DNA of 64,000 nucleotides, from the NCBI GenBank assembly GCA_019637875.1, contig JAHBUW010000006.1, forward strand, positions 1 through 64,000. The letters are read 5' to 3'. The notes beneath the pieces are model-generated. The model saw only the letters and a program-made list of their open reading frames with translations. It searched no databases and was not told the origin of the DNA. Source of the DNA: Pseudobdellovibrionaceae bacterium (GTDB lineage Bacteria; Bdellovibrionota; Bdellovibrionia; Bdellovibrionales; Bdellovibrionaceae). Positions 3,741-42,754 of this stretch are shown piece by piece; positions within the stretch are counted from its first letter, which is position 1, and each line of letters opens with the position of its first letter. Position numbers and translations under genes: made by a program.

Positions 3741-4078
3741 AAGACCCGAAGACACGCGCGTTGATGGAGGCGAAGGCGGCTTCGTGGGCAAGTAGCGGAA
3801 CCTGCCGAGAGAATGCCGAAATGGATTTCCTCGCAGGCGCCGAGGCGAGAGACGCTCTTGCGGTTGAGCGGGAAGAGAAGCTTGTGGGCCTGCTCAAAGG
3901 TGCCATTGCAAGGATTGATGCCAAGGATGCGCTGTTAGTGGCGTATCGGGTCGGCAAACGCCCGTCAGAAAAAAGCTGGCAGGCAATTGAAAGCTCCGAA
4001 GCTGCCGAAGCAGATGCCCGGACAGCCCTCGCCGAACACCACGCCGCGAAGGGGGAAGACAATGTGGGAAAACGGTAA
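3737..4078 (+). CDS. Helical phage hypothetical protein
   Basis: A 113-residue protein from ATG 3737 (ATGA overlap). It is almost wholly helical and rich in Ala and Glu, with no membrane segment or metal site. It overlaps the start of the next gene (4062) by 17 nt. Function unknown. Confidence 0.55.
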   Translation: MKDPKTRALMEAKAASWASSGTCRENAEMDFLAGAEARDALAVEREEKLVGLLKGAIARIDAKDALLVAYRVGKRPSEKSWQAIESSEAAEADARTALAEHHAAKGEDNVGKR

Positions 4079-5105
4079 ACCGGACCACGGCTCTCACCAC
4101 TGTTTCAAGCACAAATATATGCACGATGGCTTTAAAAGTCGCGACTGCAAAACGTGTTTCCCGCCGACGTGTCCAGAGTGCTATCCCGACCAAAACCCGA
4201 AGCCGCCCGCAGAGAGTGACGAGAAGCTGCCTGTCGATGGCAAACGACATCCACAGTATGATATTAACGTCTTCCCAGACGGCAGAGTATGGTCAAACAA
4301 ACTGGGCAGATTCCTAAAGCCCTTTTACCATGGTGCCCCGCACGCCAAATATCCGAGCGTCGCCGTAAGAGTGGATGGCAAAACGCGCTCAAAAAAGGTT
4401 GGTCACTTGGTACTTGAGACTTTTGTCGGCCCTAGACCCGAGGGATACCATGCCGCCCATCTCGATGGAAACAAAGACAACAGCTCGTTGTCGAACATGA
4501 GGTGGGTAACTCCAACTGAAAATGAGAGCCATAAAATCCTTCATGGGACAAAAGCTGTTGGCGAAAAACATGGGTCTTCAAAGCTGACAGAAGCGGATGT
4601 CGCATTTATTCGTTCTTCGGACAGAGGAACGGCAAATCTGGCAGTCATGTTCGGAGTTTCGAAAAGGCAGATATTAAACATCGTTAACGCGGAAAACTGG
4701 AAGTCTCCAACCCTCGCCAACGATCCGCGAGTAACAAAAATCGGCGAAAACGTTACTACCGAAAACGTAAGTAACGAAAACGTAAGTAACGAGAGTGACG
4801 AGAAGCTGCCTGCATTCGGGACTCTTGCTTTATCTGTCGAAAGAACTAATCCGCTCGAATGGGCGACTGCGGCTGCGAAAGCAAGTTACAATCTTGCCCG
4901 CGCCAACCCAGTCGAAGACCCCCGCGTCACGGAGTTGGTGGAGGCTCTTCAAGATGCGCAAGAGTCTCTCGCCGGAGCACTTGAGGACATGCAACACTAC
5001 AGAGACCAAAGGTGTCTGCCGACAGAAGATGAAATCGAGAAGGTGGGAACGGCGGAGCTTCAAGCAAGGAAAACGCTCCGCAAATTTGAAAGGCGGGACA
5101 CATGA
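4062..5105 (+). CDS. Phage protein with internal HNH homing domain
   Basis: A 347-residue composite protein. Residues 1-50 hold Cys/His pairs (C-x-x-C-F-P-P-T-C-P-E-C) like a zinc ribbon. Residues about 60-155 form an HNH_3-type domain: G-H-L-V-L-E-T-F-V-G, then A-A-H-L-D-G-N-K-D-N and L-R-W-V-T-P-x-x-N. Residues about 175-205 look like a helix-turn-helix (K-L-T-E-A-D-V, then F-G-V-S-K-R-Q-I) of the kind that follows homing nuclease cores. Then come three tandem five-residue units (E-N-V-x-x) and a C-terminal helical region shared in style with the neighbours. The nuclease part is bracketed by an exact 22-bp direct repeat, suggesting in-frame insertion into an older gene. Confidence 0.78.
   Translation: MWENGKPDHGSHHCFKHKYMHDGFKSRDCKTCFPPTCPECYPDQNPKPPAESDEKLPVDGKRHPQYDINVFPDGRVWSNKLGRFLKPFYHGAPHAKYPSVAVRVDGKTRSKKVGHLVLETFVGPRPEGYHAAHLDGNKDNSSLSNMRWVTPTENESHKILHGTKAVGEKHGSSKLTEADVAFIRSSDRGTANLAVMFGVSKRQILNIVNAENWKSPTLANDPRVTKIGENVTTENVSNENVSNESDEKLPAFGTLALSVERTNPLEWATAAAKASYNLARANPVEDPRVTELVEALQDAQESLAGALEDMQHYRDQRCLPTEDEIEKVGTAELQARKTLRKFERRDT
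4212..4812 (+). repeat. 22-bp direct repeats bracketing the HNH insert, plus 15-bp tandem repeats
   Basis: GAGAGTGACGAGAAGCTGCC followed by TG occurs exactly at 4212-4233 and 4791-4812. The 579-bp period is a multiple of three, so the inserted segment leaves the frame intact and the residues E-S-D-E-K-L-P are repeated. Just before the second copy are three 15-bp units starting at 4746, 4761 and 4776, the last two identical. Confidence 0.9.
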
Positions 5106-16223: not shown

Positions 16224-18902
16224 TTAAAGACCGATGCGAATGATTGACACGTAGTTAAACTCAGCAGCGTTGAACAACGCCAAGCTTGCGCCCGAGTTGT
16301 GATAGATCCGTATGTCGATATAGTCTCCGGCCATCAATTGAACTAAGTCGTGTCCACCCACACGCATGAGTCCATTCGCGCTGCTTCGATTGTCATCTCG
16401 ATCAAGGGCACTAACCCTCGACCCATTCTTGTAGAGAGAAATCTCCGCGACTTCCCCCTGAGTCCAAGTGGTGCTAGCTACAAAGATCGCCATTGCCGAA
16501 ACATCGTACAAACCAGGAGCCTGTGCCGTGAATTTCCACGACGCTCCGGTTGTCACAGAACCATGAGTATCGAAGTTGACGGTTCCGAAGTTGATGATTG
16601 TAACGGCGTTGTTCGGAATACTTTGACCGGCACTGGTACTTGCGCGAGCGGCAATCGTCTCCGTCGCCGCGATGGCTGTGGGGCCACCGATTCGCTCGAC
16701 ATCAAAATACGTCGGGTTGTAGTCCGCCGCCGTGGTTGACCCGGCTCCCACTTGAGCGGACAGAGCAATCGTCTCGCCAGCACGAAGGGGAACGATGACC
16801 GAACCGCTCGGAATCAACGACTGATTGCCGGCCGCTTGGTTAAATGCCTGGCCGATCGCGCGAGTCGCTGATCCGTTTTTCTCAAGCGTCAAAAGAATAT
16901 TGCCGTTCGTTGTCGATACCGCAGCCGCTCGCAAGCTTCCGGAGATCCGATAGTTCCCACTCACTTTCACGGTGTACTGATTCGTGCTCGGATTCCAGCC
17001 GCCATGTGTATCAAGCGCAACGGTCGACATCGTTGTGATGCGAGTTGAAGAAGTCCCTACTGACTGTGTTGTTGCCGTGTTGTTGTAGACTGAAAGAGCG
17101 ACAACCCGCGTGTCTGCGCTATCCGACATCTGAACCGACGACGACCAGCCTTGGATGGGGAAGGCGAAGTTGAGATTTATGGCGTCCGTTTGTCCGGATG
17201 CGATATCAGCGTTAGATAGCTGAGCAGCAGTACCTACCACTGTCGCTTTGACCGCTGTGGTTCCGAACTGAAGCACAGAGATTGCTTTGAACTGCGAGGC
17301 TGAGACATCGTACCAGAGACTGGTCAAATCCTCTCGCGCGCCCGATCCGCCGGGGAGCATCTTGGCATTATCGATCGAAATCCCGCTGGGAAGCCCATAT
17401 CCGAAGTCGCCTCCCGTACTTGTTCCTGTTGATCCAAAAATATGTCGAATACGAACTTCAATAGAGTCGCCGACGCGGCGCCATTTACCCGATAACCCAC
17501 CATTACCGAGGGTGAATCCAAAGAAAGTCGGCGTGTACAACTGCCAATCGGTAGCAGGCGTCCCAAACACATACGTGCTCGGCCCGACCTGGATGTTGTT
17601 GACCTGAAGCGCGAACGCCGTGGTAGCGCTCGAAGCGACGTGCAGGATTAAGCGGTAGTCGGAACCTGTCGCCGAAGTCTGAAACTCGCCTTCGAACACA
17701 TCCGCGATGGTCGATGAATTCGAGAAGAGCTTGAAGTTCGAGGGCTGAATCAACGTCGAGTTCGTCACGTCGTAGATGTAGACGACGACATCCGATAGGG
17801 CCGATTGCGAACCAGCGGTGAACGTCCCCGACTCGACGATGTAGTCGAAACGGATCTTGCACGCTTTCGCGCGGTAAGCCTTATCGACCGTAAATGTCGT
17901 AGCCCAGCCCTGTCCTTGGCGGTTAGCGGCATCCTTCCCAAGCAGGAAGTCTTGTGTACCTGAGAGCGGTGAAGCGGTGTTGACGCCCGAAATGACGCTC
18001 GGACTTCCACCCGTCCCGTCTGTGGGTGTAGCGCCGGAATCGGCGTATTCCGCCCAGATGTCGCCAGATCCGCCATCGCCACCTTGAATGAAGTTGACGC
18101 CCGATGCACCCGATCCTGAACCCAAAGGTTTCTCGGCGCCGAATTCATCGATCGAGTAGAACTTCCCGTCAGTTTTTGGATAGAGCTTGAGCGTGCCCGG
18201 AGGTGTTGCACCGCCTGCCGTCGACTGCTGCACCATAATGAGCGGCTCATCGAAGGTCGGAGACTCAGCGAAGGAAGTCCCGGTTCCGAACTCTTTGTTT
18301 TCGAGAGTCTGCGTATCGGTCGTGCCGACGACATCTCCTGTAGGGACGGCCTTGGACGCAACGACTGCGCCCGTCCCATCACGCTGGATGAACTTGTTTG
18401 CGTTTGGAGCGTCGACCTTGAGCGTTCCTAGCCCCAGATCTTGAATCGTGTTGTCGTCGCCATCGATCGTCTTTCCGGTCAGCGTCTCGGTCGCATCGCG
18501 AGTGACGATGGTCCCGGTCGTAGGAAAGGTGACGTTTGTATTGTCAGCGCCCGTCCCGCCGCGAGATTTCGACAGGCGCTGCTCTTCGAACATGGCGCCG
18601 AAGCCGTCGTTGACGACGACGTAGCCAGGCGTCGCGGTCGCGAGCTTTTGGCGGTTGATGTTTGCGCCGTCTTTGATGTCCGCGTTCTCGATGTTCGAAA
18701 TGGTGTTCTGATCGGCGTCGATTGTTTTATTGGTAAGGTTTTGCGCTTGATCTTCAGTGACGAAGACGCGCTTCACACCATTCAGAACGACCTTTGCCAG
18801 GTGCGCAGTGGTGTTCACCCACGTCAGGCCCTCAGGAAGATTTGTGGGATCGTTCTGTTTGTTTTCGAGTTGAGCTTGTTCGAGCTGGCCTTTGAAGAGC
18901 AC
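16224..18902 (-). CDS. Tail fibre / receptor-binding protein
   Basis: An 892-residue protein starting at GTG 18902 behind GCGAGG. The N-terminal ~230 residues hold spaced repeats of the type L-T-N-K-T-I-D-A-D-x-N-T-I and L-T-G-K-T-I-D-G-D-D-N-T-I, seen in fibre shafts. A Gly/Ser-rich linker near 255-300 follows. The C-terminal ~300 residues contain two related jelly-roll-like modules (D-T-H-G-G-W-N-P and D-T-H-G-S-V-T-T starts; A-G-E-T-I-A-L-S and A-G-D-Y-I-D-I-R), similar in pattern to C1q/TNF-like receptor-binding heads. It probably binds the host surface. It is placed between capsid and lysis genes and not near the nozzle. Confidence 0.75.
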   Translation of the reverse strand: MLFKGQLEQAQLENKQNDPTNLPEGLTWVNTTAHLAKVVLNGVKRVFVTEDQAQNLTNKTIDADQNTISNIENADIKDGANINRQKLATATPGYVVVNDGFGAMFEEQRLSKSRGGTGADNTNVTFPTTGTIVTRDATETLTGKTIDGDDNTIQDLGLGTLKVDAPNANKFIQRDGTGAVVASKAVPTGDVVGTTDTQTLENKEFGTGTSFAESPTFDEPLIMVQQSTAGGATPPGTLKLYPKTDGKFYSIDEFGAEKPLGSGSGASGVNFIQGGDGGSGDIWAEYADSGATPTDGTGGSPSVISGVNTASPLSGTQDFLLGKDAANRQGQGWATTFTVDKAYRAKACKIRFDYIVESGTFTAGSQSALSDVVVYIYDVTNSTLIQPSNFKLFSNSSTIADVFEGEFQTSATGSDYRLILHVASSATTAFALQVNNIQVGPSTYVFGTPATDWQLYTPTFFGFTLGNGGLSGKWRRVGDSIEVRIRHIFGSTGTSTGGDFGYGLPSGISIDNAKMLPGGSGAREDLTSLWYDVSASQFKAISVLQFGTTAVKATVVGTAAQLSNADIASGQTDAINLNFAFPIQGWSSSVQMSDSADTRVVALSVYNNTATTQSVGTSSTRITTMSTVALDTHGGWNPSTNQYTVKVSGNYRISGSLRAAAVSTTNGNILLTLEKNGSATRAIGQAFNQAAGNQSLIPSGSVIVPLRAGETIALSAQVGAGSTTAADYNPTYFDVERIGGPTAIAATETIAARASTSAGQSIPNNAVTIINFGTVNFDTHGSVTTGASWKFTAQAPGLYDVSAMAIFVASTTWTQGEVAEISLYKNGSRVSALDRDDNRSSANGLMRVGGHDLVQLMAGDYIDIRIYHNSGASLALFNAAEFNYVSIIRIGL

Positions 18903-20280: not shown

Positions 20281-21228
20281 TTAGTCTTCGAGCGTTTGGG
20301 CGAACTTCTTCATGTCGGCGAGGCTCTTGATGCGAGAGCCGCCTGCGACTTGAGAGGCGCCTTTAGCGGAAGGGATGACAGGCACTTCTTTCGGTGCTTG
20401 AGGAACTGCGGGTTGCATTTGTGCGGGTGCAGCTGGTGCCGCTTGTGTCAGGAAGGGTCTGAACCTCGAGACGACAGCGTTAACTGCTTCGAACGCAGAG
20501 ATGTCTTGTTGGTTCAGCGCGAATTGCGCCTTACCCTCTTGAACGACCTGTGCGTAGAATGCGCCCTCACCGTTTACAGCATCGAAACGAGAGGCAATGT
20601 CTTTGATTTCGGGATTTGCCAGGGCTTGTGACAGCTCTGTGCGTTTGACCGATACCTGGAGCGCCGCCATTTGATTGGCGTAGGACTCGTTCTGGCTTGC
20701 CAAGTGTTGAGCTTGGCGCTCGGCTTCTTGGTTCTGATGGTAGATGTCCTGGGCTTGTTGGGGCAAGGAGTCAAAATCCATCTGCTGTTTTGCCGCCACG
20801 TAGATCTCTTCCGGCGTGAGGCCGAGTCCACGAAGGGCTTTCATCATCTGGCCCTGAGAGCGAAGCGCTTTGATCTTCGAGAACTGCGTTTCGTACTGAC
20901 CGAGTTCGTTCCGGTAGACGCCGCTTTCCTCGCGGTACTTATCTCGCTCAGCTCGCACAGGATCGAGACCCTTTGCCTGCTCGAACAAACGCTTCAGACG
21001 CTTTTCGTCCTCAGCCGATTTGATATAGCTGCGGTACTCTTCGTCGATCTCATGCTCTTGACCGGCAGCTTTGAACTTCCAGTTCGGCGTGTACGCAGGG
21101 GTCTCAGGCGCGGGAGTTACCGCCCCGGGGTCTCCACTCACTTCAGGCGCAGACGTTTCCGCAGCGCTCGAAGTCTCTACCGCTACACCTTCGCTAGATG
21201 ACAGGTTCGACTGTTCCATTTCCGACAT
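20281..21228 (-). CDS. Capsid scaffold protein
   Basis: A 315-residue, acidic, highly helical protein between portal and capsid genes. It has a disordered Ser/Thr/Pro-rich N-terminus (about 1-48), a long Gln/Glu/Ala coiled region and a Pro/Ala-rich segment (about 262-290) before a basic C-terminal helix, the part that contacts coat protein in known scaffolds. It overlaps the portal gene by 35 nt. Confidence 0.7.
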   Translation of the reverse strand: MSEMEQSNLSSSEGVAVETSSAAETSAPEVSGDPGAVTPAPETPAYTPNWKFKAAGQEHEIDEEYRSYIKSAEDEKRLKRLFEQAKGLDPVRAERDKYREESGVYRNELGQYETQFSKIKALRSQGQMMKALRGLGLTPEEIYVAAKQQMDFDSLPQQAQDIYHQNQEAERQAQHLASQNESYANQMAALQVSVKRTELSQALANPEIKDIASRFDAVNGEGAFYAQVVQEGKAQFALNQQDISAFEAVNAVVSRFRPFLTQAAPAAPAQMQPAVPQAPKEVPVIPSAKGASQVAGGSRIKSLADMKKFAQTLED

Positions 21229-23359
21229 TCACTCCTCCTTGAGTTTGATTTTGTTGTTGCATCAGGCCTTCCGTGGCCTGTCCCGCGATGGCGACTTGAT
21301 CTGCCGGCGCGAACTTCTGTAAAGAATCCTGAGCCATGCCCTGCTTGTTCACGATGTCGTGAGCCCATTGCAGAGTTTCGTAGGGAAGCACCATGCGCTG
21401 CTGTTTCCCGTTGATGGTGACGTAGACGTCACACTTCACGAGGCTCCCGCCCATGGGAACGAAGCCCTGCTTTGCCATCGCAAGCTGCCTGAGCTCTTCG
21501 GCCTTAAAGGCGCGGTGCTGCTCACGCTTCTCGAAGTACGCCTGCTGAATCTGCGGATCGAGTGCCTTGAAGTCTGGAGACTTGATGCGCGAGGTGAGTT
21601 CAGTCACATAGAGGTCATGCGTATCATCAGGCTCAGCTGGACGCTTCTCCCCGCGGTCTAGAGCCAGGATGTCGTTTTCGACATTCCGGTAGTTCTGCAT
21701 GATGGGCTTTAAGATCTGCTCCGAATTCGCGAACGGCATATTCGAGAGAATCTGCCCGACTGCCTCAGGGGGAAGGTTCTTCCCGACGTACTGAAGAGCG
21801 TTCTGTGTGAACATAAACCGGCCCAGCATGTCGGTTGCGTCCGAGTTTGCAGCCTCAACCGTGATCGAAACACTAGCCTTATCCGCCGTGCGGAATTCAG
21901 CGATGTTGATCATTTCAGATCGGCCCACAGCTTTGATGAAGTGGTGCTCATCGAAATAGTGCTTCGCGAGCTCGAAGTAGATGCCGTAAACGTCCTGAAG
22001 GAAAGCGACGATCGCCTTGGCTTGCTTCCCGTGTTTCTTCGATCGTTTGACAGACGAGTACAGAATCGCGAGCGGCTCCGTCGCCATTCCCGAATCTTCA
22101 ACCGCTTCTTCATCAGCGACCTGATACATCTCCGCAATCTGCTCGACGACGTAGCCCGCGAACTGATCGCCTACCCGCCCAGGGATGATTTGCACATCAC
22201 CGAAGGCTTTGTATGTGCGGATACCGGGAAGGGTTCCTTCCTGCGAGGCTTTCGCTCCGGGGCGCGTGATCATCTTGTCGTCGCCATGGGTCAACTGATG
22301 CTGAATGCGCTGGCTCGATGCGCGGTTGATCTCGACCTGGTAAGGGCGAATCACCCGGATGCGCGAGCGGTGGCGAGGAGACGTGGGAAGGCGCGTGTGC
22401 CCAGTGTAGGCGATGGGCCACACACCAAAAGGAAGCTCGCCGCTCGTGATAATGCCGAACTCTGTCTGGATGTAGTAGTAACCTTGCGGATACTCCATAC
22501 ACGGACGGTAGTAGTGGTAGCGCAGATGAACTTTCCCTTTGTCGTCACCGAAAGAGAGCTTGTTTGTGTCGAAGATACGGTAGGTGGTCTCCGATGACTT
22601 CTTCACGAACTCGAGCTTTTCTTCGCGCTCGGGGTCGTCTTCTGCGATCATCGCTTTCACATCTTCAGGCATCGACATCTTGTCGACGATCACATAGGGC
22701 GAATCGTCCATATCGTCTGCGTCTGGTGCGCGGTGGAGATTGAAGCCGTAGATGTTCTCGAAGACGAAGTCTCCGGAGAATACAGGACGCGTCTTATCAG
22801 GTGCGGGCTTGAGCATTTGATCAAGCTCAGGGTTTCCGGTTTGGCGGACCTCAGACCCATCAGGAGCCGTGAAGAGCGCCTGCCCTTCCTCGTCTACTTT
22901 TTGGTGATAGTTAATCAAGTCACCCTTGTTCGGATTCCAGATAACGAGCGTTGCGACTTCGCCGATCTCGACGAAATCCTGAATCCATTTCTCGCGGCGC
23001 TCTGCGAGCTTGTACCGTTTATCTCCAAAGAGCTTCACTGCCTGGTAAAGCTGTGCCGCCTTTTTATCCTGAAGCTCGTCACGATTTGCCGGAGTACACT
23101 TCACGTCAGGGGCGAGGGCGGCAATGCCGTTCACTTCCCGGTTACAGATCTTTTGCGTGTGGTTCTTTGTGATCTTCACCTTTTGCTGTGAAGTCAGGCT
23201 CGAGCCGCGAAGCTGTTCGCGGAGATTTTTCTCAATCCGTTTGTAGTGGTCGCCCGAAACTAGCAGCAGGTTCGACTTCTGCTCGGCGAATAGTTCTTCA
23301 TCGCAAGTCTTCGCATCTTGGAAGAGCTTGTTCAGTTCTTCATTAGTCTTCAGCTTCAT
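21194..23359 (-). CDS. Portal protein
   Basis: A 721-residue protein between the terminase and scaffold genes. The size matches large portal proteins of short-tailed phages. It has a helical N-terminus, Q-K-V-K-I-T-K-N-H-T-Q-K-I-C-N-R-E-V-N-G, a basic R-S-R-I-R-V-I-R-P-Y-Q-V-E-I-N-R segment near 330-345 and a Gln-rich C-terminal tail. It forms the dodecameric DNA gate and docking point for terminase and adaptor. Confidence 0.78.
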   Translation of the reverse strand: MKLKTNEELNKLFQDAKTCDEELFAEQKSNLLLVSGDHYKRIEKNLREQLRGSSLTSQQKVKITKNHTQKICNREVNGIAALAPDVKCTPANRDELQDKKAAQLYQAVKLFGDKRYKLAERREKWIQDFVEIGEVATLVIWNPNKGDLINYHQKVDEEGQALFTAPDGSEVRQTGNPELDQMLKPAPDKTRPVFSGDFVFENIYGFNLHRAPDADDMDDSPYVIVDKMSMPEDVKAMIAEDDPEREEKLEFVKKSSETTYRIFDTNKLSFGDDKGKVHLRYHYYRPCMEYPQGYYYIQTEFGIITSGELPFGVWPIAYTGHTRLPTSPRHRSRIRVIRPYQVEINRASSQRIQHQLTHGDDKMITRPGAKASQEGTLPGIRTYKAFGDVQIIPGRVGDQFAGYVVEQIAEMYQVADEEAVEDSGMATEPLAILYSSVKRSKKHGKQAKAIVAFLQDVYGIYFELAKHYFDEHHFIKAVGRSEMINIAEFRTADKASVSITVEAANSDATDMLGRFMFTQNALQYVGKNLPPEAVGQILSNMPFANSEQILKPIMQNYRNVENDILALDRGEKRPAEPDDTHDLYVTELTSRIKSPDFKALDPQIQQAYFEKREQHRAFKAEELRQLAMAKQGFVPMGGSLVKCDVYVTINGKQQRMVLPYETLQWAHDIVNKQGMAQDSLQKFAPADQVAIAGQATEGLMQQQNQTQGGVNVGNGTVEPVI

Positions 23360-23648
23360 CTGCTACTCCTTCAGCAGTTGTCGAAAAGCTCATGCCGGCG
23401 CGCTGCCACGCCACAGGGTCTTCGAGGGGGTCGATGTAGTTTGATTCTTCGGGCTCGGCGGGAGCGAGTGTGTTTTCGTAGTGACCAGCCGTCGCCATGA
23501 CGGATTGAGTATCGCTGACACCATGAAAGGTTTCTTGGAAGCGAATCTTCAATGCTCCTAGGTCAAGCTGAAGAACACCCGCTTCTCCGCAGGCTTTGAT
23601 AATGGCGACGAGGTCTTTTGGCGCAGGAAGGCTATCCGTAGTCTTCAT
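23343..23648 (-). CDS. Small late protein between terminase and portal
   Basis: A 101-residue protein. The ATG at 23648 lies four bases after AGGAG inside the terminase 3' end, giving a 17-nt overlap. A longer in-frame extension upstream would lie fully within the terminase gene. Pro/Glu-rich and acidic at the C-terminus (P-A-E-P-E-E-S-N-Y-I-D-P-L-E-D). Function unknown. Confidence 0.55.
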   Translation of the reverse strand: MKTTDSLPAPKDLVAIIKACGEAGVLQLDLGALKIRFQETFHGVSDTQSVMATAGHYENTLAPAEPEESNYIDPLEDPVAWQRAGMSFSTTAEGVADEAED

Positions 23649-26175
23649 TAAGCTCCTCAATTTCTTGTTCAAGGTCGATGATTTCGGTTCGTTTCTGGTA
23701 GGCAAGTCGGCGATCAGCGATCATCATTTCGGTTGTGATGATCTTCGGAGCTTCGGGCTTCTCCTGACCGCCGGTCACATTCATGAAGTCAAAGGTCACA
23801 GACGAAAGCGCGTATCTGAGGGCATCAGAAGCGTGGTCCTTTGCTTTCTGCTTCTGGGTGTCGTTCCGCAGGTTCAGCAGCTCGTCTGCGAGTTCAAGCC
23901 CGCCTTTGTTTTTGAAGATCGAGAGCATCATGTTTTTGAAGAGCGTATTGATAAGCCCTTCGCCGATCTCATGACGCTTTTCTGCTTTTTGGATCGGGAT
24001 GCTTTCTCGTTCGGCCACGATTCCGAGATCGCGGTCGGCGTAGTCGTAGTAGCTTGCAACGACCTGCTTTCCGACTCTCATGTAGACGTACTGCCGGAGA
24101 ATGTCGGATGCGGTCGTGTTCTTATCATCGCCCGTGATGTTGTCAGGGGTTCCGATCCAAACGTCGGTAACGATGGCTTTCTGGAAGCTCGGGTCAACGG
24201 CCACGAATACGATCGCGGCTGGATGCGAAAAGGTCGTCTTCGTGCCCTGAACGCCAGAGCCTGAGTCGATGCCGACGAAGTAAACCCATGACTCCGGAAT
24301 CTGATGCTCAGGAATCATGTTCACTTCAGCATTGAACGACGGGAACTTCAGGACGGATTTGTCGATGATGAATCGACCATAGACACGTCGGAGCACTTCT
24401 TCGGGCGTGGGGAGCGTCTGCTCAATCTTCTTGATGCGCTCGATTGTCCAGTCAGACGGAATGCCGTTCTCGTAGGTGAGGCAGTCATAAAGCGACACCC
24501 GCATCTTGTGCGCGGAAGGAAGCTTCAACTTCAGAGGATCTGTCTCCTCCATGACGTCGAACCAATACTGCTGAGACAGCGTCGGCGTGAATACGCCTGC
24601 GATGTAGCCATCCGTCGCACCGACTCGGAGTTGAAGTTCAGGCCAAAGCTCAATCGGGAGTTCTTCGTCAATAGAGAGCATCCAAACGGTTCCCGTCTGA
24701 AGGTTCTCGACCTGTTGGTCGTATGATTTGAAAAGCAGGTTGATGCCGGAGTTAAACTTAAAGCCTGCGATGAGACCATTCGGCGATTTGATGAGCTCCC
24801 AGCCGTACTGCGGGTCATCCTTCATCTCACCACGAGGCATGAATTCAGGAATCCATTTCAGGCGCGCTTCGTGATCGGCAACCTTAAGCGACGGATACAG
24901 ATACCAGAATGTAATGGGGCGCGTGCGCCATAGCTCGGGCCATCTGTCAGGTTCTGTTGCGAGCGTGATGTTTTTGCGGATCTGCGTGCTAGAATTGTGG
25001 GTAACGATCGACTCTTTGCCTGCGACAAACGAGCCTTCACCGCAGACCGTGATGCACTTGACTCGCTTTTTTCCGATGGGCTCGATCTTGTGAATGATTC
25101 GCTCGTGAGCGCATCGCTCAGGGAACCGATAACGAGCAATTTTGCGAGGCAGCCGAAATGGACAAATCGGCAGGTGAACGCGGACACAGTACGTGTCGCT
25201 CGCGATGTGCTTTGCTCCATCTTTTATGTAGTGACTCGGGTGCTTCGCAATGAAGCCTAGCCCACCAAGCCCCTGCGTGAGTCGCACCACATCTTCTGCG
25301 AGCTGCTTGGACGCAGTCGCAAATGTGCAAAGTCCCGTCCTCGAGACGCAGCCATCTGTGTCCATGAGGCCTTGAAGCAAGGCCAATCTTTGCTCGACGG
25401 CGCCCCAGAAATAGGACTCGGGAATAAACTTCGTAAAGCAGTCTGTTCCCAACAAACCTAGCTCCGACAGAATATCCCTCACTCCCGTATCGACGGGAAT
25501 GCGGTAGCCGTATTTCCCACTCTTCCTCGCGCCGTAATTCACGACTGCGTAGTCCGCTATTTCCGCGTCAGCGGTAGTCAGCGAGACGTGTTTCGTTACG
25601 CAGCCATCGCCCAGCAGAAGCCCTAAAAAGTATGGGTCAAAAAGTATCTTGCCAGAGAATCTCAGTGGCTCATTGACGGGAATGCTGTATCTTGCGCGCG
25701 CGCACGTCGTTGAAGGCGAGTATCCTCCGTGCTGGATAATTTCCTTAGTTGTTCGAACAACCCATTCGCCATACCTAGAATGCGTTTTGCGAAATCGCTC
25801 TTCAGGACCTTTGCAAAACCACTCGTGTTCACCGCTGGCTTCGATCGAAGATCCATCGTGAAAGGTGATACGGAAAGCTTCATCTTCCCCATCGAAAGGA
25901 ACCGCCAGAATCTTCGTGGGATTTCCGAGACGCGTATAGACGTAATCGCCGACCCCAAGGTCAGCCATCTTCTTGTAGCCCGAAGGCGTGGGAATGAGCG
26001 TCTCATGGGTAAGGGCCTTCGAGATCTGGTTCGCACCAGTCAGGAATAGGAGCTTGTTCGTCGAGTTGATGAACTCGCGCGTCCACTTGTAGTAGGGAAA
26101 GCCGTAGAGGTGAGGCAATAGCTCACGCTTCCGCGCCTCACGCGCAGCCGCTTCCTCCAGCTTCTGGAGCTTCAA
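23632..26175 (-). CDS. terL: Terminase large subunit, interrupted by an intein
   Basis: The DNA-packaging motor and headful or site-specific nuclease. The precursor is 847 residues; removing the intein (residues 54-394) leaves 506 residues, a normal size. The Walker A motif G-A-N-Q-I-S-K is split after Lys53 and continues with S-S-T-Q-I-R-K after residue 394. Walker B W-M-L-S-I-D-E-E lies at 498-505. The nuclease domain shows Asp637 (G-I-D-S-G), Asp711/Asp714 (Y-D-Y-A-D) and Asp784 (H-A-S-D-A). The ATPase cannot be functional until the intein is spliced out. Confidence 0.92.
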   Translation of the reverse strand: MKLQKLEEAAAREARKRELLPHLYGFPYYKWTREFINSTNKLLFLTGANQISKALTHETLIPTPSGYKKMADLGVGDYVYTRLGNPTKILAVPFDGEDEAFRITFHDGSSIEASGEHEWFCKGPEERFRKTHSRYGEWVVRTTKEIIQHGGYSPSTTCARARYSIPVNEPLRFSGKILFDPYFLGLLLGDGCVTKHVSLTTADAEIADYAVVNYGARKSGKYGYRIPVDTGVRDILSELGLLGTDCFTKFIPESYFWGAVEQRLALLQGLMDTDGCVSRTGLCTFATASKQLAEDVVRLTQGLGGLGFIAKHPSHYIKDGAKHIASDTYCVRVHLPICPFRLPRKIARYRFPERCAHERIIHKIEPIGKKRVKCITVCGEGSFVAGKESIVTHNSSTQIRKNITLATEPDRWPELWRTRPITFWYLYPSLKVADHEARLKWIPEFMPRGEMKDDPQYGWELIKSPNGLIAGFKFNSGINLLFKSYDQQVENLQTGTVWMLSIDEELPIELWPELQLRVGATDGYIAGVFTPTLSQQYWFDVMEETDPLKLKLPSAHKMRVSLYDCLTYENGIPSDWTIERIKKIEQTLPTPEEVLRRVYGRFIIDKSVLKFPSFNAEVNMIPEHQIPESWVYFVGIDSGSGVQGTKTTFSHPAAIVFVAVDPSFQKAIVTDVWIGTPDNITGDDKNTTASDILRQYVYMRVGKQVVASYYDYADRDLGIVAERESIPIQKAEKRHEIGEGLINTLFKNMMLSIFKNKGGLELADELLNLRNDTQKQKAKDHASDALRYALSSVTFDFMNVTGGQEKPEAPKIITTEMMIADRRLAYQKRTEIIDLEQEIEELNEDYG
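24994..26016 (-). mobile_element. Class 3-type intein with LAGLIDADG endonuclease, in terL Walker A
   Basis: A 341-residue insert (precursor residues 54-394). It starts with Ala, has no Cys/Ser at position 1, and ends H-N followed by Ser+1. The class 3 W-C-T triplet is in place: block B His117-Glu-Trp119, block F Cys374 in R-V-K-C-I-T-V, and block G Thr392 before His393-Asn394. Two LAGLIDADG-type (DOD) blocks are present, F-L-G-L-L-L-G-D-G (183-191) and L-Q-G-L-M-D-T-D-G (267-275), so the homing endonuclease may be active. Known class 3 inteins use the block F Cys to make a branched intermediate without an N-terminal nucleophile. Confidence 0.88.
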
Positions 26176-26233: not shown

Positions 26234-26431
26234 TCAGTGATGTTCCCAAAACCCCGGGCATTCATTGCATGAGGTGATGACGATTTCGTTTCCTACGGTG
26301 TCACTCTTCAGCGCCATCCAAGTCCGCGTCCCGCACTTCGGGCAGGCGAGCTTCGAGGAGCTTCGCCCCGCCTTTTTCCTCAAGTTCGCGAATGCGGCGG
26401 TCGATGTCTTCGAGGCTTTCTTTTTCGCCAT
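26234..26431 (-). CDS. Small zinc-ribbon protein
   Basis: A 65-residue protein starting at ATG 26431 after GAAGGAAC, with a basic N-terminus (A-K-K-K-A-S-K) and a zinc ribbon C-P-K-C-G-T-R-T-W ... C-N-E-C-P-G-F-W. It overlaps the 3' end of the upstream gene by about 131 nt in another frame, and both frames look protein-like. It lies between the terminase subunits, so a DNA-binding packaging accessory role is possible but unproven. Confidence 0.6.
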   Translation of the reverse strand: MAKKKASKTSTAAFANLRKKAGRSSSKLACPKCGTRTWMALKSDTVGNEIVITSCNECPGFWEHH

Positions 26432-27029
26432 CGGGTGTTCCTTCGACATTCACGTTCTGGTTCTGCGTCACAACTTTCTGAGTGACCGAACCGTAGACGC
26501 GGTTCATGAGGATTTCGGAGATCTTCACCTTCACAGCCGCTAGACGAGCATCAGTTCCGATGTCGTTGCCTTGCTTATCCCTGAGAACATGATCGCGCGT
26601 CAGGATGTCGAGCTGCTGATCGAGCGCAACGGTCAGCATGTGTTTCAGCTGAACCCGATACGCAGGTGGGGGCAGACAGATGAACGCCATCTTGTAGGCG
26701 TCTTTCTGAATGATCTTCCACCAGTATTCTTTGCGGCAGACCCCGTTATAGATGTTCGGCAGGTTCATGATTCGCCCGCCGAGAGACGCGAAATTGTACT
26801 CAAGCCAGAAAGCTTCGCGCAGGCGTTCTTCAGTGAGGCCGATGTTGCCGACTCTTTTCAGTTCGGTCTCGGTGTAACTGAGAACTTCGAGGGGGATCGA
26901 TTGAAGCGCTTCGGCCATTTTACCCGGAAGCATGTTGACTAGCGAGTGCCGATTGCTGGCATCCGTTAAATCAAGCTCGGGTTGTAGGTCCTGGGGCGAA
27001 GGGATCACGTCTCGGGACATCAGTAGCAC
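26301..27029 (-). CDS. Terminase small subunit candidate
   Basis: A 242-residue mostly helical protein upstream of the terminase large subunit gene. N-terminal half: helices with L-T-E-E-R-L-R-E-A-F-W-L-E-Y; centre: A-A-V-K-V-K-I-S-E-I-L-M-N-R; the C-terminal ~50 residues form an acidic coiled coil (L-E-D-I-D-R-R-I-R-E-L-E-E-K). Size and order fit a small subunit that recognises pac/cos DNA. No clear HTH was found, so the name rests on position. Confidence 0.5.
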   Translation of the reverse strand: MLLMSRDVIPSPQDLQPELDLTDASNRHSLVNMLPGKMAEALQSIPLEVLSYTETELKRVGNIGLTEERLREAFWLEYNFASLGGRIMNLPNIYNGVCRKEYWWKIIQKDAYKMAFICLPPPAYRVQLKHMLTVALDQQLDILTRDHVLRDKQGNDIGTDARLAAVKVKISEILMNRVYGSVTQKVVTQNQNVNVEGTPDGEKESLEDIDRRIRELEEKGGAKLLEARLPEVRDADLDGAEE

Positions 27030-33622: not shown

Positions 33623-33709
33623 CGCCCCTTAACCGTCTCAACTTGCTATAGCGTTTTGTTGGAAATTTCACGCGGGGTTAACCAAGTCCCGCCGATAATA
33701 GGAGTAGAC

Positions 33710-34300
33710 ATGTCACGCAACCAACTCACACCAGATAAGTACATGACGCCTCAGGAAGCGGGTGCGCTTGACGCCCGTCTTGCAGCGCTCGATACCTCTG
33801 ACCCGCTCGTTGCGCGTGATCATGCTTATCTGAGTTTTCTCAGGCTCACGGGCGTCCGCGCTTCTGAGGCGCTGAACCTCGAGCGCCGAGACTTCCTCGG
33901 TGTGTTCGACGGAGCAGGAGGAGAACGCTTCGGACGCGTCCACATTCGCACGCTGAAGCAGGGGCTTGACCGGGTCGTGCCCGTGCCCGGTTGGCTGTAC
34001 GACCGCTGCTTGTCAATGGCTGGAGCGTTTCCGGGCTCGCCGATCTTCGCATCTGATACGGGTGAGGCGATCAAGCTCAGACGTGCCGACCAGATATGGC
34101 GTACGTATCGGACGTGCGACAAGAAGCTTCACTCGCTTCGTCACACTTTCGGGCGTGAGCTCTACCGCGCAACCCGCGACATCCTGCTGGTGAAGTACGC
34201 GCTTGGACACGCATCGGTATCGAACACGCAAATCTATACCGAGATGGACATGGAAGATGACTTGAGTCGCGCTTTAGGAGCGCTGAGAGGAGCGTCATGA
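33710..34300 (+). CDS. Minimal tyrosine recombinase (catalytic domain only)
   Basis: A 196-residue protein. It carries the R-H-R-H-Y set: T-G-V-R-A-S-E (first Arg), H-S-L-R-H-T-F (His and second Arg), L-G-H (His) and N-T-Q-I-Y-T (Tyr nucleophile). It lacks the N-terminal core-binding domain of a standard integrase, so it is about half the usual length. It is separate from the full-length integrase at 41.7-42.8 kb. Possible jobs include resolving genome dimers, inverting a phage segment or replacing a host Xer protein. ATG 33710 is chosen as the start for its position after the intergenic AATAGGAGTAG site. Confidence 0.85.
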   Translation: MSRNQLTPDKYMTPQEAGALDARLAALDTSDPLVARDHAYLSFLRLTGVRASEALNLERRDFLGVFDGAGGERFGRVHIRTLKQGLDRVVPVPGWLYDRCLSMAGAFPGSPIFASDTGEAIKLRRADQIWRTYRTCDKKLHSLRHTFGRELYRATRDILLVKYALGHASVSNTQIYTEMDMEDDLSRALGALRGAS

Positions 34301-41453: not shown

Positions 41454-41723
41454 GTGGGCGATCCGATCACGACACACGAAGCGGCGATGAAGTACCGGAC
41501 GACCTCGCGGCGGATCTGCGCGCTTGTGAGGCAGGGACTTGTGACACCGATTCTGGCGCTCGGTTCCAAGCCCTACAAGTTTGACCCAGACCGCTTTGAG
41601 CGCGAGTTACTGGAGGCTGGATCTTTGAAAACAGAATCAGCCGTGAAGACATTGAAGAAACCCAAGCGCTCTCCCGTCCGTAACAGACGGAAAGTGAGAG
41701 AAAGACTATGGGACAAAGAATAA
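41454..41723 (+). CDS. HTH protein, excisionase candidate
   Basis: An 89-residue basic protein from GTG 41454. The N-terminal half reads like a winged HTH of the MerR/excisionase type (T-T-H-E-A-A-M-K-Y-R-T-T-S-R-R-I-C-A-L-V-R-Q-G, in two pieces, then Y-K-F-D-P-D-R-F-E-R-E-L). The basic tail (K-K-P-K-R-S-P-V-R-N-R-R-K) overlaps the integrase start by 16 nt. The position directly before int fits an excisionase that also represses or directs recombination. Confidence 0.6.
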   Translation: MGDPITTHEAAMKYRTTSRRICALVRQGLVTPILALGSKPYKFDPDRFERELLEAGSLKTESAVKTLKKPKRSPVRNRRKVRERLWDKE

Positions 41724-42754
41724 GCAAAGTGACCCGCGCAGACGGAACCACTGGCTACAAGGTCGATGTAACGATCAAGGGCCAGCGCATTCGCCAAGTC
41801 TTTGACAAGGCGGAAGCGGAGAAGCTCGTGCGCGCGGAGAAACAGGAAAAGCTTGAGCGCATGCTGGGTGTGAAAGCCGTTGAGCGTGTTTCGGAAGTGA
41901 AGCTTCGAGACCTGATCCGCGGTTACTGGGACGACGTCGTTTCGAAGCGAGTGTCGTCATGTTCACGCAGGCTTTGCCGCATCAACCTGACGCGGTTCTA
42001 CGACTACGCTCATGGTGAGCGAAGTGTGGTTTACGTCAGCGAAGTGACGACATCTCTCATCTGGGAGTGGCGCGACAAGCTGATCGACGATGGGTTTAAA
42101 CCGTCGACTGTGAACTACAAGATGAACGCCGTGCGCGGAATGTTCACGCGTGAAGTTGAAGCGAAGCGCATGAAGGCTGCTGACAATCCGTTTGACGGAT
42201 ACAGCGACCTTAAAGCCGTCAGTGAAGCGAGGATGCTATGGAAGCCACAATGGGTCGACCTGTTCATCTCGCACGCCCTGGAGCCTATTAGGAGCTTTAT
42301 CGAAGCGCTAGCTGGAACTGGCATGCGTCCGATTGAGCTTTTGAGTGTGACATGGCGGATGGTGGACTTCGACAGCGAGATCTTGACTGTGCGTTGCGGA
42401 AAGAATGCCGGCGAACTCCGGTCGTTCCCGCTGGATCAGCATCTGCGCGAAGTATTCGAGGCCATTAAGCCTGCGAACGCTGGCCTAGATGAGCGGGTTT
42501 GGAAGCTCTCTTACAATCGCATGTGGGAGATCTTCACCGAACTGCGCGACGAACTGGGACTTCCGAAGAAGCTCTCGTTCTATGGGCTCCGTCACACTTT
42601 CGCGACGGACCTCATGCAGGAGAACGTGCAGGTGTTTAAGGTTCAGCAGTTGATGGGGCACAAGAACGTGGCGACCACAATGCGCTACGTCCATGTGCAG
42701 ATGGATGACATGAGAAACGGACTTAAGACGTTACGAGACACAAGGGGTGCGTGA
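41708..42754 (+). CDS. int: Phage integrase, tyrosine recombinase
   Basis: A 348-residue protein. N-terminal arm-binding-like strand region (K-V-T-R-A-D-G-T-T-G-Y-K), a SAM-like core-binding domain (about 65-155) and the catalytic domain with G-T-G-M-R-P-I-E (first Arg), G-L-R-H-T-F (Arg/His pair), M-G-H (His) and T-M-R-Y-V-H (Tyr). It catalyses integration and excision. It is the last phage gene, immediately before the chromosomal boundary, which supports placing the att site in 42755-42892. Confidence 0.93.
   Translation: MGQRISKVTRADGTTGYKVDVTIKGQRIRQVFDKAEAEKLVRAEKQEKLERMLGVKAVERVSEVKLRDLIRGYWDDVVSKRVSSCSRRLCRINLTRFYDYAHGERSVVYVSEVTTSLIWEWRDKLIDDGFKPSTVNYKMNAVRGMFTREVEAKRMKAADNPFDGYSDLKAVSEARMLWKPQWVDLFISHALEPIRSFIEALAGTGMRPIELLSVTWRMVDFDSEILTVRCGKNAGELRSFPLDQHLREVFEAIKPANAGLDERVWKLSYNRMWEIFTELRDELGLPKKLSFYGLRHTFATDLMQENVQVFKVQQLMGHKNVATTMRYVHVQMDDMRNGLKTLRDTRGA

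Follow-up and report, generated by a model that had tools for sequence, protein, structure and literature searches.

Class 3 is a minority type of intein, and members that start with alanine and interrupt the Walker A motif of the terminase large subunit (TerL) are already known. They occur in Mycobacterium phage Tomaszewski (...RKNGK/ALDV...THN/T; slashes mark the intein borders), Klebsiella phage RaK2 (...RQMGK/AISN...THN/T), Escherichia phage ELT3 (...RQLGK/ALDV...THN/T) and Acinetobacter phage TaPaz (...GSGK/AQPL...THN/T), in each case after the Walker A lysine. The Lys/Thr point of the P-loop is a classic insertion site, and those terminase inteins that were tested, TerL1-c and TerL1-e included, did splice (PMC5050341). 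Here we describe an insert in the prophage terL gene of a Bdellovibrionia bacterium (Pseudobdellovibrionaceae; contig JAHBUW010000006.1, positions 1 to 64,000, the whole analysed stretch of 64,000 nucleotides being referred to as the window). With high confidence, we consider this insert to be a class 3 intein of full length that includes a LAGLIDADG endonuclease and separates the Walker A lysine from the serine after it. It shares Ala1, the Trp-Cys-Thr (W-C-T) triplet and the LAGLIDADG endonuclease with the inteins of the four phages, which all lie in annotated terminases, but it is only 27-33% identical to them, is followed by serine instead of threonine at position +1 and resides in an unrelated TerL family. 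The first-pass annotation had expected an intein of this kind in a presumed predatory lineage to widen the range of class 3. This is true as regards a single phylum of bacteria and a single family of terminases, but not in kind, because Ala1 class 3 inteins at the same TerL position are known from unrelated phages. The present case contributes a further host phylum, a further terminase family and an example with Ser+1 at this site.

Among mycobacteriophages, TerL1-a denotes an insertion site, and TerL1-c, -d and -e are TerL inteins of class 3 that have the WCT triplet; unlike the window intein, these belong to actinobacterial phages and interrupt other points of the ATPase domain (PMC5050341). 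The inteins DnaBi1 of Mycobacterium smegmatis (PDB 6bs8) and DnaB1 of M. chimaera (6rix) resemble the splicing domain of the window intein in sequence, signature and fold, but are mini-inteins without an endonuclease domain and sit in the replicative helicase of their hosts. The class 1 VMA intein PI-SceI has the same two-domain architecture and LAGLIDADG fold (Foldseek E-values 1e-13 to 1e-16, template modelling (TM) scores 0.67-0.75); it differs in being larger, in splicing class and host gene, and in sharing only 13-16% identity with the window intein. The TerL inteins of Vibrio phages 1.245.O and D282 were found to be class 3-like, with Asn in place of Trp at B:12.

The terL precursor frame (positions 23632-26175, minus strand) encodes 847 residues, is open for 857 codons and contains the insert as residues 54-394. 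Judged by sequence, the host protein is a large terminase: after joining, the exteins match PHROG 2 (terminase large subunit, E=1.1e-10) and align over their full length with three uninterrupted homologues at 37-43% identity, two of them from viral contigs and the third (locus L005) from a Bdellovibrionia genome that belongs to the host's order. The surroundings of Walker A, the Walker B motif (DEELP) and the nuclease aspartates are conserved in all four aligned TerL sequences.

The TerL family was reached via the neighbouring gene and then via alignment. The alignment scan matched 153 related viral contigs, of which the best 80 were kept and pooled with the earlier loci, including intein-free L005. 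All 84 TerL homologues proved to be uninterrupted at the insertion point, and only the three window-derived loci are split there. The 84 empty sites therefore locate the insertion point precisely, after the Walker A lysine and before the next serine (GANQISK/intein/SST), and the first-pass annotation, which had located the insert right after this lysine and looked to an intein-free terL homologue for the empty site, is borne out. The Walker A motif of the window TerL is non-canonical (G-A-N-Q-I-S-K-S), with Ser replacing the second Gly. Such a motif is usual in this family, where the empty site reads AANQISK/SSTQ in 20 and AANQLGK/STSQ in 15 of the 84 homologues. Given the many intein-free relatives with a near-identical AANQISK/SSTQ site, homing and splicing should be easy to test.

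The insert resembles phage inteins far beyond chance (tblastn E-values down to 8e-46, over 99% of its length). Position 1 is Ala54 of the precursor, so that a Cys, Ser or Thr nucleophile, as expected for class 1, is missing there. Block B contains His117 (B:10) and, two residues further, Trp119 (B:12); block F contains Cys374 (F:4) within VKCITV; and the C-terminus is Thr392-His393-Asn394 (G:5-7; T339-H340-N341 in intein numbering), followed by Ser395 at +1, a position held by Ser or Thr (rarely Cys) in class 3. Class 2 inteins lack the W-C-T triplet that is present here. These features match the definitions of class 3 given in PMC5222942 and PMC5050341. All residue numbers and coordinates of the first-pass annotation turned out to be exact.

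We aligned the window intein with 24 phage and plasmid inteins from annotated records, with a class 1 control. At the class 3 positions, the window intein carries His, Trp, Cys, Thr, His and Asn, which confirms the full W-C-T signature and the absence of Cys or Ser at position 1 that had been proposed initially; the class 1 control has Cys1 and no block F Cys, and so does not show the signature. In a second alignment, of the window intein and 47 others from viral contigs, all 48 sequences share His B:10, Trp B:12, Cys F:4 and Asn G:7, and 46 of them have Thr G:5. Ala1 and Ser+1 would formally also be compatible with class 2-type splicing, in which Ser395 itself would attack the N-terminal junction and Cys374 would not be needed. 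This is extremely unlikely, as the intein possesses the three additional class 3 residues and belongs to a clade in which these do not vary, and as F:4 Cys-to-Ala exchanges abolished splicing in three tested class 3 mini-inteins (PMC5222942).

Assignment of the window intein to class 3 is likewise supported by profile search, phylogeny and structure prediction. The best PDB sequence matches were the M. smegmatis and M. chimaera DnaB inteins (for 6bs8, E=1.3e-6 with the single sequence and 4.1e-23 by profile), both of class 3 (PDB titles; PMC6195587, PMC7664689), and the F:4 Cys of the window aligns with that of 6bs8 and 6rix; the insert was not placed in class 1 or 2. In the maximum likelihood tree, the window falls inside a starred set of 13 sequences (95/90), nested in one of 15 (95/95). 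All members of both sets are inteins with the F:4 Cys, mostly from phage helicases and terminases, and the window intein stands on a long separate branch, away from the class 1 control. The tree supports class 3 but is not proof alone, since its single class 1 outgroup is on a long branch. The AlphaFold2 model of the intein is confident throughout (predicted local distance difference test 93.5, predicted TM score 0.91). Searched with Foldseek, the whole length retrieved intein-endonucleases such as PI-SceI, and the splicing domain retrieved class 3 DnaB inteins, with root-mean-square deviations of 1.2-1.9 in the best alignments. The intein fits the proposed phage origin of class 3.

Bacterial intein-like (BIL) domains have been reported from Bdellovibrio, to judge from a title cited in PMC2797640, and the other intein-like matches examined in this phylum are devoid of the block F Cys. 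One might thus suspect that a class 1 intein or BIL domain was misread as class 3. The probability of this is close to nil: position 1 is Ala and not Cys or Ser, the W-C-T triplet is present, and the insert carries an endonuclease domain and interrupts a conserved phage gene at an exact empty site. Signature and placement refute such a misreading in the main. In a protein search of 369 Bdellovibrionota genomes, no other class 3 intein was found. The only further match (L114/L207; L114 in genome G248) was rejected as a class 1 SbcC-like intein with Cys1; the intein of L114 sits in the P-loop of an SbcC/Rad50-like protein (GSGK/C...HN/S). A profile search of the phylum added class 1 DnaB-type inteins and partial matches, and none of those examined combined an HN end with a block F Cys: the HN-ending ones had a VFDLTV-type block F without Cys, the remainder were partial or Hint-only fragments. 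A full-text literature search, which is weak evidence as its coverage is partial, turned up no class 3 intein described from Bdellovibrio.

As the first-pass annotation had stated, the window intein retains both LAGLIDADG blocks. Each has its acidic residue, D137 (LGLLLGDG) and D221 (LQGLMDTDG) in intein numbering, and Pfam LAGLIDADG_3 matches above cut-off (E=5.7e-9). The endonuclease domain thus appears to be intact, and homing activity is plausible. Several observations nevertheless speak against a functional class 3 intein. The Pfam splicing model PF14890 gave no match to the intein in a search of its own genome, and no NCBIfam intein model scored above cut-off; the curated Pfam splicing-domain model evidently overlooks inteins of this type. 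Of the 11 cysteines of the intein, Cys325 (intein numbering) lies four residues past the predicted nucleophile C321, where it could disturb the chemistry, and occurs in 1 of the 48 aligned inteins, namely that of the window. Finally, the intein is present as a single copy only, in one prophage, and no second contig of the TerL family proved to share it among the best 80 of the 153 viral matches. The single copy and the unusual Cys325 would suit a degenerate intein that has lost splicing or homing, leaving TerL, and hence the prophage, dead. We consider such decay unlikely, as the frame is open, all catalytic residues of the splicing and endonuclease domains are retained and the structure model shows no region of low confidence.

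By analogy with tested relatives, a functional class 3 intein at this site would splice as follows. After translation, Cys374, assisted by His117 and Thr392 and with Trp119 sitting in a pocket, would attack the Lys53-Ala54 peptide bond and take over the N-extein as a thioester. Ser395 would then accept the N-extein, Asn394 would cyclise and release the intein, and an O-N shift would join GANQISK to SSTQ, restoring the ATP-binding loop. Until then, according to established P-loop chemistry, TerL should be without ATPase function. The endonuclease would cut intein-less terL alleles at the conserved site and thereby spread the element. An effect of redox or zinc stress on splicing has been shown for class 3 mycobacterial DnaB inteins; in that of M. 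smegmatis, oxidative stress causes the nucleophile to become disulfide-bonded to a second cysteine (PMC6195587). Cys325, as the sole basis, makes a similar disulfide switch possible in the window intein. If Cys325, or redox or zinc stress, held TerL as an inactive precursor until a cue is received, it would be the physiology of the host, for instance its predatory cycle, that turns on the packaging motor, although we judge conditional splicing of this kind to be very unlikely.

Table 1. Coordinates of the terL gene, its intein and neighbouring prophage genes (positions in the window).
Feature	Position	Strand	Remarks
TerL N-extein	26017..26175	-	53 amino acids, TTG start, ends in Walker A ...GANQISK
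Class 3 intein with LAGLIDADG homing endonuclease domain	24994..26016	-	341 amino acids (Ala1...Thr-His-Asn)
Block B His-Glu-Trp codons	25819..25827	-	intein H64-E65-W66; precursor 117-119
Block F:4 Cys codon	25054..25056	-	intein C321; precursor Cys374; predicted initiating nucleophile
Last three codons of intein	24994..25002	-	
TerL C-extein	23632..24993	-	begins Ser-Ser-Thr; Walker B SIDEELP; nuclease Asp296/370/443 (spliced numbering)
Conserved gene directly upstream of terL	26301..27029	-	candidate small terminase (synteny inference)
Gene after terL	21194..23359	-	homologues (open reading frames of 713-725 amino acids) adjoin terL in two viral contigs; position suggests a portal-like protein
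Tyrosine integrase	41708..42754	+	right-hand prophage end, host genes beyond

The prophage setting and the Bdellovibrionota host assumed in the first-pass annotation are both supported. Besides the integrase, we identified a YqaJ recombinase, an AAA_24 ATPase and PHROG head, tail and lysis genes, and the chromosomal genes past the phage genes include type II secretion components. The prophage is at the end of a 218-kb contig; its left end may be missing because the contig starts at window position 1, and no att direct repeat was found across the prophage. The host is a relative of predatory bacteria and presumably predatory itself.

The gene directly upstream of terL (Table 1) had no PHROG match, and similar open reading frames precede terL in loci L005, L006 and L007; its product is a candidate for a small terminase of an undescribed kind. 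The TerL family of the window is frequent among uncultured viral contigs (153 matches, the best 80 being L009-L088) and occurs in one Bdellovibrionia genome, with no match in 50,697 phage records. Searched as a single protein against viral contigs and phage records, the joined TerL gave no match. The viral contigs with this TerL family probably represent phages of Bdellovibrionota or neighbouring phyla.

Some further prophage genes deserve mention. A second, short integrase-like open reading frame (33656-34300, plus strand; 214 amino acids) matches PHROG 216 with E=1.1e-20. In the structural region, an 892-amino-acid protein (16224-18902, minus strand) contains a C1q-like domain (Pfam E=9.3e-9), matches PHROG 15750 at its C-terminus and is probably a tail fibre or receptor-binding protein. 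An open reading frame with an HNH_3 domain (3987-5105, plus strand; E=1.5e-8), which runs counter to the structural genes, possibly encodes a free-standing homing endonuclease.
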